Assembly (NCBI RefSeq): GCF_000271405.2
Contig: NC_018081.1
Coordinates: 412,847 to 476,846, forward strand
Reading direction: 5' to 3'
Length of the DNA: 64,000 nt
From: Enterococcus hirae ATCC 9790
Lineage (GTDB): Bacteria; Bacillota; Bacilli; Lactobacillales; Enterococcaceae
The notes beneath the pieces were generated by a model. The model searched no databases. It was given only the letters and a program-made list of their open reading frames with translations, and had not been told where the DNA came from. How positions within the stretch are numbered: the stretch's first letter is position 1; every line of letters begins with the position of its first letter. Positions 61,110 to 63,791 of this stretch are shown here, piece after piece. A program made the position numbers and the translations under genes.

Positions 61110-61668
61110 ATGTTATTAGAAGATGAAGTTATCTTTAAAAAAATTTCTAATATTACACCACAAGAAAAAGCCTTGGTCAAGGCTTTTTCTTGTGGAAAAG
61201 ATCATATTGACTCCTATCTAAAAAATGAAGCATTAGAAGAAATAAAATATGGTATTTCAAAAACTTTTCTAATGTTTATAAAACAGAAAAATAATCCTCT
61301 CTTCCTACTTGGATTTTTTTCTCTAACTACAGATAGAGTTCAAATAATTAGAACTTCTAAGTTAACTAATGCGTTAAAAATTTGGGGTAATCCTATTATG
61401 CCACAATCTATACCAGCAATTAGGATTCATTATTTTGCTATTCATAAAGACAAACAACGTAAAAAAATTAGGTAGTGAAATGATGTTCTATACATTCCAA
61501 TATATAAAAAATTTTATTTTACCACATATTGGAGCTTGTTTAATTACTTTACAAAGCGAAAAAGACGTTGTTAAATTTTATGAAGAAATCGGTTTTTGTA
61601 AAACTGGTCAAACAAGAGATAAAAACATTAGCATGGCTGTTTTAACAAATGAGTTTTTTATAGAATAA
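61110..61668 (+). pseudogene. GNAT acetyltransferase (toxin-like), frameshifted
   Basis: The first part runs from MLLEDEVIFKKISNITPQEK to IRIHYFAIHKDKQRKK, where one extra A in the run at about 61459-61465 shifts it into a stop. The second part, KLGSEMMFYTFQYIKNFILP, CLITLQSEKDVVKFYEEIGF and on to FFIE, completes a GNAT domain with the acetyl-CoA loop at the junction (HKDKQRKKLGSEM). Total about 185 residues, similar to TacT/AtaT-like toxins that acetylate aminoacyl-tRNA. Start has a GGTGA site. Confidence 0.78.
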
Positions 61669-61676
61669 TTTATTTA

Positions 61677-61702
61677 GGCTTTCAATTCTTGAAAGTCTTT
61701 TT
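61677..61702 (+). terminator. terminator after the GNAT gene
   Basis: GGCTTTCAA / TTGAAAGTC with a 3-base loop, then TTTTT. Confidence 0.8.
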
Positions 61703-61703
61703 A

Positions 61704-61760
61704 TGTACCCTGTAGGACTCGAACCTACGACCGACGTTTTCCACCGTCTGCTCTGACCAA
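61704..61760 (-). tRNA. truncated tRNA copy (3' two-thirds), att-site candidate
   Basis: It matches the 3' part of the intact CAT tRNA at 63713-63786: acceptor 3' strand, TPsiC arm (one difference) and the D-arm end (GGTCAGAGCAGACGG). The anticodon arm is altered (GACG-GTGGAAAA-CGTC) and the 5' acceptor strand is replaced by AT-rich DNA, so it is not functional. Same orientation as the intact tRNA, as expected for the far junction of an element integrated at a tRNA 3' end. Confidence 0.85.
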
Positions 61761-61781
61761 TATAATTAACATATATATAAA

Positions 61782-61824
61782 AGACTGTAGACAGATTCAA
61801 AATTTAGGGAGCTGTCTACAGTCT
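61782..61824 (-). terminator. perfect 13-bp hairpin
   Basis: AGACTGTAGACAG / CTGTCTACAGTCT with a 17-base loop; the minus strand continues TTTTATATAT. It could end transcription coming through the gene remnant at 61872-62108. Confidence 0.7.
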
Positions 61825-61871
61825 GAAAATTTTAATATTTTGATTCTGGCCTCTTTGTTTTATCATTTTGG

Positions 61872-62108
61872 TTAAAGGATATTAGTAAAAGATAAAATAT
61901 TGTTCTGACCGATGAAACAATCGAAAAAACGAACATAAAAAAACCAAAGTTGCACCGTAAAATTGGCGAAATCAGGATGCGGCTTCATTTTAACTACTGA
62001 TTGTAAAAATATAGTTAAAATTAACAGAATAAAATTACTAATTAATGTTTCTACACTATATCTAAATATAGTTTTATCTCCTCTCCCTTTCTGAAATTCT
62101 GGACAAAT
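61872..62108 (-). pseudogene. remnant of a small membrane protein gene
   Basis: An open frame without any usual start codon before the conserved-looking part: CPEFQKGRGDKTIFRYSVET, LISNFILLILTIFLQSVVKM, DFANFTVQLWFFYVRFFDCF. It shows two likely membrane segments and reads like real protein, but the 5' end is lost behind a stop. No family recognised. Confidence 0.4.
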
Positions 62109-62194
62109 TTAAGAAACAAAAATATCATTTTTATCGCATTAAATCAATATTTTCTTTTTTTAAATAATCTAAGATAGATAAAGAATGACCCAAA

Positions 62195-62216
62195 TTTGTG
62201 GTAATTTTTGTGGTAA
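62195..62216 (+). repeat. direct repeat pair TTTGTGGTAA, 12-base period
   Basis: TTTGTGGTAA at 62195 and 62207. Tandem GTGGTAA copies of this kind often flank integrase att regions; here no integrase gene is left. It corresponds in position to the AGTATGGTCA pair at 60088. Confidence 0.5.
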
Positions 62217-62236
62217 AAAATTGCAAAAAAACATCC

Positions 62237-62291
62237 TTCACAACCAAGTTATTTGCAAATAATTCTAAAAAAGCTACTCTTTCGAGTAGCC
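62237..62291. repeat. hairpin module, copy 2
   Basis: Same as copy 1 at 60474-60527 apart from one extra T. It includes the GCTACTC-TTTC-GAGTAGC terminator stem. Confidence 0.9.
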
Positions 62292-62477
62292 CTAGATAGA
62301 AAAGCGTAGTAAAACACAGGAGATCTTGTGAGGTTGATCGTGGATTACTACAAAAATTATTTTGTGCTACATAATTTTAAACTAAATAATGCGAACACAA
62401 CACAGAATATTTAGTAGCACAATATAATTATAATCTATGAAACTAAGCTTTTTTATTCAATTTTGTTATAGCTGATA

Positions 62478-62506
62478 TAAAAAATAACCACCCGAAGGTG
62501 GATAAT
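62478..62506 (-). terminator. terminator of the Abi-family gene
   Basis: CCACC-CGAA-GGTGG stem within AT-rich flanks, minus-strand U-run, 28 bases past the stop. Confidence 0.8.
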
Positions 62507-62534
62507 TATTAAACTCTTATTTTGCAAGTTAATG

Positions 62535-63563
62535 CTATTTAAATTCTTCTTTGTCTTCAAAAATTTTTAGTAATCCTGAATTCATTTCTATAAAATTCGA
62601 TATTTTATATTCCCAACCTTCAATAAACCCCATTTTTAATTTAATAGTAGTAATTGATATTGTTTCAAAGATACCTAATTTATCATTAATTACCAAAGGA
62701 AAATAAATACTAAGTAAAAGTTGATTTAAATCTTCTAATGATAATACTAGTTTTAGCATTGCTAATAAACCAAAGAGGCTACCTTTTTTTATTTCATTCA
62801 ACACACTATTATCATAATATTTTTTGAAATTTTTTTCTTTAAGTGCTCCAATTTTTTTGGAATATAAAACTTCTTCATGAGCACATATATTTCTATAAAA
62901 GTTAACAGCTTTAATTATTTGCTTCAAAGCACCAACTGATACGTCATTTTTTGTATTATATTCTCTTTTAAATTTTACACTAAAATCTCTAGCAATTTTT
63001 TCTTGTAAATCATTTGTTAAAGAATTAAAAAGATATGATGTTTCGCCAAAAGTTAAATTATTAATTAGTACCCATATTGGTATATGTGAATGATTTTCTA
63101 AATAATGTTTTATTGAATTACTGTATTTTTTCTTTTTTTCTCTCTGAATTATTTTAGATAAATTAGCTATATTTATTAATACATTATCCAAAGAACTAGG
63201 TTCTTTTGTATAGCAATTTGCGTTTAAATACGCATTCTTTTCGGGAAATTTTTCTGCAAATCTATATGCAATAATAGTTTTTAAATTAGTTTCAAACATC
63301 AATAAATATTTAAATATATGGTTTCTAAAGTCTCTATCTAAAGAATACAAACGATAAATTTCATTAAAATTTGTATTTTCAATAAATTTTTCAGAACTAC
63401 CATAGCTTTTATCTAAAAAGATATCTTTGTATCCATTAATAACATTATAGTAATTTTCTCTCAAAAGAATAGACTTAGTTACCTCTTTGTCGGAAACAAC
63501 CAGTCCTCTACTTATCAAAATATCAATCTGATTATCTAATGTTTTAAACGGTTTGCTAATCAT
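62535..63563 (-). CDS. Abi family abortive-infection protein (AbiD/AbiF-like, HEPN motif)
   Basis: 342 residues. The N-terminal KTLDNQIDILISRGLVVSDK and LLRENYYNVINGYKDIFLD are hallmarks of the Abi_2 family (AbiD/AbiF of lactococci). A central helical part carries LYSLDRDFRNHIFKYLLMFE, and near residue 220 FYRNICAHEE supplies the R-x4-H motif of HEPN ribonucleases. Such proteins stop phage growth, probably by cutting RNA. The ATG has a GGTGG site. It has its own consensus promoter with a terminator-like hairpin and a 14-codon leader between promoter and gene. High AT content and its place between tRNA copies indicate horizontal origin. Confidence 0.9.
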   Translation of the reverse strand: MISKPFKTLDNQIDILISRGLVVSDKEVTKSILLRENYYNVINGYKDIFLDKSYGSSEKFIENTNFNEIYRLYSLDRDFRNHIFKYLLMFETNLKTIIAYRFAEKFPEKNAYLNANCYTKEPSSLDNVLINIANLSKIIQREKKKKYSNSIKHYLENHSHIPIWVLINNLTFGETSYLFNSLTNDLQEKIARDFSVKFKREYNTKNDVSVGALKQIIKAVNFYRNICAHEEVLYSKKIGALKEKNFKKYYDNSVLNEIKKGSLFGLLAMLKLVLSLEDLNQLLLSIYFPLVINDKLGIFETISITTIKLKMGFIEGWEYKISNFIEMNSGLLKIFEDKEEFK

Positions 63564-63564
63564 A

Positions 63565-63609
63565 TTACCACCTATACAAAAAACGCCATAACCGCATTCT
63601 GACGATCAT
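63565..63609 (-). CDS. 14-residue leader peptide before the Abi gene
   Basis: ATG at 63607-63609 opens MIVRMRLWRFLYRW, ending in TAA one base before the Abi ATG. The reading frame spans the whole attenuator hairpin and covers the Abi ribosome binding site. A weak AGAAG site precedes it. If translated, it would couple ribosome movement to hairpin formation and to Abi translation. It is predicted only. Confidence 0.4.
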   Translation of the reverse strand: MIVRMRLWRFLYRW

Positions 63610-63612
63610 GGC
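63578..63612 (-). terminator. attenuator-like terminator in the Abi leader
   Basis: In the transcript GCCAUGAUCG pairs with UGCGGUUAUGGC (with G-U pairs) and is followed by UUUUUU, beginning about 10 bases after the predicted start site and ending about 14 bases before the Abi ATG. No second promoter fits between hairpin and gene. Confidence 0.75.
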
Positions 63613-63628
63613 TTAATCTTCTAGAAAA

Positions 63629-63657
63629 ATTATAACAACAAACTAATCCGCATGCAA
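63629..63657 (-). promoter_or_regulatory. promoter of the Abi gene
   Basis: Minus strand TTGCAT (63652-63657), 17 bases, TATAAT (63629-63634); start site about 63622. Confidence 0.82.
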
Positions 63658-63712
63658 CAAAAAATTATTTTTTATAATTTATTCTAGAATAAAACGTTAA
63701 TTTTAAAGTTTA

Positions 63713-63786
63713 TGTACCCTGCAGGACTCGAACCTACGACCGGACGGTTATGAGCCGTCTGCTCTGACCAACTGAGCTAAGGGTAC
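63713..63786 (-). tRNA. tRNA with CAT anticodon (Met or Ile2)
   Basis: 74 bases: acceptor GTACCCT / AGGGTAC with discriminator A, D arm TAGCTCAGTTGGTCAGAGC, anticodon stem GACGG/CCGTC around CTCATAA, TPsiC GGTTCGAGTCC. CCA not encoded. The CAT anticodon fits elongator tRNA-Met or lysidine-modified tRNA-Ile2; I cannot tell which. Its 3' end is the boundary of the accessory segment. Confidence 0.93.
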
Positions 63787-63791
63787 AAGGT

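Follow-up and report, generated by a model that had tools for sequence, protein, structure and literature searches.

The abiF gene of C. difficile shares its promoter with the small RNA RCd22, and most transcripts stop at a terminator. RCd22, which contains two RF03085 motifs, binds AbiF and represses it both in cis and in trans (PMC12373285). A PbAbiF dimer bound to its noncoding RNA is seen in structure 8VZ6, which is reviewed together with AbiFr in PMC12737573. For abiD1 of L. lactis, a 50-base transcript that stops at a terminator immediately before the gene has been reported alongside a rare 3.6-kb read-through transcript that does not rise on infection; AbiD1 is described as being activated at translation by the phage protein Orf1 (PMC2661086). 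The AbiD and AbiF proteins have also been linked to Cas13 (PMC12165695).

We analyzed a stretch of 64,000 nucleotides from Enterococcus hirae ATCC 9790, referred to here as the window, in which an Abi gene on the minus strand is preceded by a promoter and a hairpin (Table 1). Very probably, this prophage-borne locus belongs to the RNA toxin-antitoxin modules of the AbiD/AbiF type, with a 45-nt RNA in which the hairpin is also the terminator. The assignment draws on the promoter-RNA-terminator-abi layout, on conservation and covariation of the RNA in relatives, on an intact HEPN motif and on a predicted fold like that of AbiF, all of which we computed here. Accumulation of the short RNA, its binding to the protein, neutralization and toxicity are what homologues would lead one to expect, and a role in phage defense or prophage maintenance may likewise be proposed by analogy with them.

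Table 1. Positions in the window of the Abi module and its flanking tRNA sequences
Feature	Position	Strand	Basis or remark
-35 element TTGCAT, weak (3/6 matches to TTGACA)	63652..63657	-	Sequence; -35 not listed by the sequence scan
-10 element TATAAT, perfect	63629..63634	-	17 nt from TTGCAT; ends 10 nt before GATTA
Proposed antitoxin-type RNA, about 45 nt: GATTA, hairpin, U6	63578..63622	-	Start site inferred from the -10 box
Hairpin, predicted intrinsic terminator: 11 pairs, 6-nt loop, then G and U6	63585..63612	-	Fold, terminator scan
Abi ribosome binding site AGGTGG	63568..63573	-	Duplex energy -7.2 kcal/mol
14-codon ATG frame MIVRMRLWRFLYRW with its stop, taken to be a chance frame	63565..63609	-	Conservation and shuffles
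Abi_2 (AbiD/AbiF) HEPN protein, 342 aa	62535..63563	-	Pfam 1.8e-39; PADLOC AbiD 4.9e-51; 8vz6 by sequence and fold
HEPN RNase motif RNICAH, residues 224-229	62877..62894	-	Aligned relatives
tRNA-Met (CAT), between prophage endolysin region and Abi module	63712..63787	-	
Degenerate 3' part of the same tRNA, other boundary of the Abi segment	61700..61760	-	34-nt repeat, 97% identical, spacing 2009 bp

Reading along the minus strand, tRNA-Met is followed by TTGCAT, 17 nt, TATAAT, GATTA, the hairpin with its U6 (63612-63578), AGGTGG and the Abi ATG at 63563. The terminator-type hairpin, the ribosome binding site and the start codon had all been predicted and were found as claimed. The promoter had been called a consensus promoter: its perfect TATAAT and 17-nt spacing stand, but TTGCAT agrees with TTGACA at only three of six positions and was not listed by the sequence scan, and the term is therefore too strong. 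A terminator scan of 1.6 kb returned four sites, with 0.3 expected from shuffles, and the hairpin in the Abi leader has the most pairs among them. The leader has a folding energy z-score of -2.7, with equally good folding in 2 of 200 shuffles. Judged from the sequence, an intrinsic terminator stands between the RNA and the toxin gene. The idea that most transcripts end early while some read through into abi agrees with this layout, in which the terminator lies close to the promoter.

The protein carries the RNxxxH site of the HEPN RNases, and the R, N, C, A and H of its RNICAH motif are invariant in all 21 aligned proteins. An AlphaFold2 model, built from an alignment of 21 sequences, reached a pLDDT of 90.7. 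Foldseek returned 8vz6 as the sole match at E <= 0.001 (E 2.2e-10, TM 0.65/0.74), and so did a PDB profile search (2.1e-26), where the next match, an unrelated enzyme, stood at 0.068. From predicted structure and profile alike, the Abi protein is a HEPN RNase whose modeled fold matches that of PbAbiF bound to its own RNA in 8VZ6. The two proteins are 19% identical in the fold alignment, a likeness at the protein level that covers the fold and the HEPN site; PbAbiF likewise has an associated RNA.

The closest match in layout is RCd22-AbiF of the C. difficile phages phi027 and phiC2 (PMC12373285), which shares with our locus an Abi_2 HEPN toxin with an RNxxxH motif, a place in a prophage lysis region, and an upstream RNA on the same promoter followed by an intrinsic terminator, with rare read-through reported in C. 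difficile. Our Abi protein is 29% identical to phiC2 AbiF over 249 aa. Full-length RCd22 is described as 132 nt long, with a pair of RF03085 motifs and a terminator separate from them, whereas here a single 45-nt hairpin is merged with the terminator; neither a second motif copy nor a separate terminator was found. The order of RNA antitoxin, terminator and toxin also recalls the type III toxin-antitoxin systems ToxIN and AbiQ, which differ in toxin, RNA structures and repeat arrays (PMC12373285).

A scan of genome contigs gave 64 loci encoding related Abi proteins. Read by eye, 62 of their leaders show a hairpin element a short way ahead of abi, no more than about 70 nt from it. In 39 leaders it is of types related to that of the window (GATY, or GACT in L024, followed by the hairpin), and the other 23 have a third type (CCAGTTTGTCCTCCGG... 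or a near variant); two of the 62, L042 and L065, have no clean U-run. The two exceptions are L020, where the contig ends within the leader, and L049, which has a different and longer hairpin. Automatic picking gave a hairpin in 81 of 85 leaders and chose a non-conserved one in several (for example L028, L035, L042, L055, L065 and L069), and our counts rest on the reading by eye and on curated leaders instead. The curated set of 40 joins the 39 window-related leaders with L076, from the window's own taxonomic family; it is not a set of independent leaders because 20 of the 40 are of one closely similar type. In that family, 14 of the 105 genomes searched, the window's own included, hold an Abi relative at E <= 1e-10. 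Among the more distant loci L077-L092, 12 of 16 have by eye a leader hairpin of other sequence before a T-rich stretch. Further recurring leader RNA types (for example AATCYGG... and AACCCCGCACACCTC...) precede more distant Abi_2 genes of the same taxonomic family in L080, L081, L084, L085, L088, L089, L091 and L092. A descriptor made of GATYW, a hairpin and a U-run is present in 37 of 82 leaders and did not discriminate in the window (two matches against 1.6 in shuffles).

The surroundings of the hairpin bear on two other readings of it. In raw counts, taken without shuffle control, the best -10 box has at least 5/6 matches in 36 of the 40 curated leaders; its end is exactly 10 nt from GAT in 21, as in the window and as the commonest distance, and 9-11 nt from it in 28; a -35 with at least four matches occurs in 28, against three matches in the window. 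The hairpin lies on the same strand as tRNA-Met, 100 nt past its 3' end, and could be imagined mainly to end transcripts coming from that gene or from the prophage lysis genes. We regard this as highly improbable, given the perfect -10 box between tRNA and hairpin and the -10 boxes found before the element in its relatives. Less remote, though still unlikely, is a plain promoter-proximal terminator that yields an inert short RNA and keeps toxin mRNA low, with activation coming from elsewhere as in AbiD1 and Orf1. The window hairpin is by itself a good terminator, and the published account of AbiD1, with its 50-base terminated RNA, translational activation and a full-length mRNA that stays flat on infection (PMC2661086), would fit such a function. 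For this function a stem and U-run would suffice, yet GATY outside the stem is kept in 39 of the 40 curated leaders and the spacing to the -10 box in many. The RNAs of C. difficile and PbAbiF, moreover, are reported to bind and block their protein (PMC12373285, PMC12737573).

The original prediction had assigned the hairpin to a peptide attenuator, in which a ribosome moving along a 14-codon leader frame would keep the hairpin from forming, so that transcription reads through and Abi is translated in a coupled manner. The frame (MIVRMRLWRFLYRW) is present as claimed: it opens in the 5' arm of the hairpin at 63609, and a single base separates its stop from the Abi ATG. ATG frames in L013, L015, L033 and L072 also start at about this place in the stem and end 1-12 nt past the assigned Abi start. 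Counting frames that begin ahead of the 3' arm and extend beyond the U-run, we found one with ATG in 7 of 40 relatives (these four and L027, L029 and L030) and one with any start (ATG, GTG or TTG) in 18 of 40, while L012, L017, L018, L019, L048 and L076 have none. Across 5000 shuffles of the leader, 16% contained an ATG frame of at least 14 codons, and 12% one of at least 10 codons ending no more than 4 nt from the Abi ATG. The Shine-Dalgarno energy of the frame is -2.1 kcal/mol, against -7.2 for abi. A comparison of leaders among Abi homologues, which the prediction had proposed, came out divided: the hairpin and RNA structure are conserved and the frame is not. No conserved translated leader peptide emerged from the conservation and shuffle tests, and ribosome-dependent attenuation is unsupported because the frame is unconserved, its ribosome site is weak and such frames are common in shuffles. 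No antiterminator was seen in the leader folds computed, and the start of the frame sits in the very hairpin that its translation would have to prevent. We rejected the peptide attenuator, to which we give hardly any credence. It had also been thought that no Abi_2 gene controlled in this manner was described; short terminated leaders are in print for both abiD1 and abiF (RCd22).

Returning to the reading as an antitoxin-type RNA, we asked how its stem varies among relatives, in which it is the outer helix that covaries. In alignment A2 (20 leaders, none from the window's own genome) 98.5% of cells are paired and 7 of 10 pairs show two-sided changes, with a covariation score reached by none of 500 shuffles. 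Alignment A8 (16 leaders, without the window) gave 97.9% paired cells and two-sided changes in 6 of 6 pairs, and A4 (the window and 7 near leaders) 95.8% and 4 of 6. The shuffles preserve the make-up of columns and not relatedness, and the loops of A2 and A8 were padded with N. One of five covariation measures, the number of further pair types, showed no excess over shuffles (134 of 500 as high for A2, 230 of 500 for A8). In MAFFT alignments A1, A5 and A6 the gaps were poorly positioned with respect to the stem, and none of the three entered the counts or models.

Model R2 was built from A8, without the window or the window's copy, from rows chosen by hand and N-padded after the window leader had been seen. 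In the 64-kb window it ranks the Abi leader first of 22 (19.4 bits, E 0.083), ahead of a match of 14.3 bits. In a genome-wide search with R2, two other places come before the leader and its copy, which share third rank (E 3.7); an unrelated place, L112:5804-5848, scores 20.9 bits against 19.4 for the leader. The earlier model R1 ranked the leader second of 9 in the 64 kb (13.1 bits, E 2.4), gave it E 0.0057 when searched over 151 nt only, and found no match over the window's own genome. With default filters on 84 loci, R1 missed both L009 and L010; with filters off it recovered the leader site in 3 of 7 relatives from the window's subgroup (L096, L018 and L048) and did not list that of L012, L017, L076 or L093. 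As a model for this subgroup R1 was discarded as too narrow. A structured RNA on the same strand, directly upstream of the gene and conserved with it, is what these analyses point to; the models support the RNA of the window itself moderately, and its position and layout weigh more.

No Rfam family matched the element above its cut-off. The Rfam abiF family RF03085, which requires 37 bits, had no match at E <= 10 in the window's own genome, the leader included, and phiC2, used as a control, matched at 37.6 bits. At the Rfam 15 gathering threshold, 20 loci returned tmRNA only, with no family on the Abi leader RNAs, and in 13 of these loci RF03085 had no match at E <= 10. The only Rfam match of the window leader at E <= 10, a weak one of 12 bits to the S15 leader, was set aside.

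The mechanism that we propose starts from a single promoter, which would produce an RNA of about 45 nt whose hairpin doubles as intrinsic terminator. Most transcripts would end there and accumulate as a small structured RNA, and a minority would read through to yield the HEPN RNase AbiD. The small RNA would bind the AbiD dimer and block its RNase; infection or stress could then shift the ratio of RNA to protein and free the enzyme.

AbiD1 of L. lactis plasmid pIL105 resembles the module in its terminated RNA of about 50 nt directly before the gene and in rare read-through, and differs from it in that its published activation is translational, via phage Orf1 (PMC2661086). The AbiD1 leader on pIL105 was missed by both R1 and R2, and the case for a shared RNA therefore rests on layout only. 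The RefSeq start of AbiD1 (L115:7318, NC_000906.2) falls within the leader, ahead of the U-run of the terminator and of the ribosome site named in PMC2661086. It is probably over-extended, an example of leader frames misleading annotation.

The Abi module lies on the same strand as prophage tail, holin and endolysin genes located beyond the right end of the window. DNA matches were found in 301 phage records, 87 of them Enterococcus phages; the best 20 of the 301 are all from Enterococcus, and the matches, which lie in the endolysin, span only 5-6% of the query. L113, a different region of this genome, has holin and endolysin frames that closely resemble those by the window's Abi module; there, an identical tRNA and a 45-nt 3' half, also identical, flank a type IIG restriction-modification gene instead of Abi. 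The slot after the endolysin (61700-63787 in the window, L113:2920-7646) holds the Abi module in one case and a type IIG enzyme with DRQT repeats in the other, and this tRNA-bounded slot looks like one for defense cassettes. A GNAT acetyltransferase is encoded by two frames in the window (61110-61668) and by one in L113 (2328-2885), and the endolysin is split in L110 and a single frame in L113; these split frames reflect either decay or sequencing errors.

A second copy of the module (L111:9895-10284, about 1919894-1920283 of G000:C2) retains the promoter, the identical 45-nt RNA and the first 50 abi codons, at the start of a remaining frame of 65 codons. There, a tRNA 3' half, the RNA, the 50 abi codons and another short tRNA 3' end sequence follow one another in a region that has an endolysin by PHROGs. 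Both copies sit in prophage regions and have tRNA pieces on either side, and the one in L111 is possibly a free antitoxin RNA. A third Abi_2 gene (L112:3386-4390), with an RNIVSH motif and its own, different leader hairpin, is located between an endolysin-like frame and tRNA-Ile (TAT).

The hairpin most likely belongs to a short RNA that holds the toxic protein in check, and related genes are already known to be arranged in this manner; what sets the module apart from RCd22 is the single hairpin merged with the terminator. Among the literature matches listed, which come mostly from outside the subscription journals, none describes a single-hairpin AbiD antitoxin that doubles as terminator. As a tentative broader proposal, the 45-nt hairpin of the AbiD branch may be at once a dose-setting terminator and an antitoxin, a minimal form that would explain the 50-nt abiD1 transcript; in this genome the module would travel as a cassette in the tRNA-bounded prophage slot, which also takes a type IIG enzyme, and the second copy, with its identical RNA and cut toxin, could supply free antitoxin against loss or firing of the first.

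Taken together, our analysis reassigns what was supposed to be a peptide attenuator to the RNA-antitoxin systems that have been proposed as ancestral to Cas13. It points to a minimal class of RNAs before Abi genes, mostly in Bacillota, lying outside the Rfam 15 families at gathering in the 20 loci searched. Should one hairpin serve as terminator and antitoxin alike, a single fold would couple the control of dose to inhibition. The analysis also suggests a testable new reading of the short AbiD1 transcript of L. lactis.
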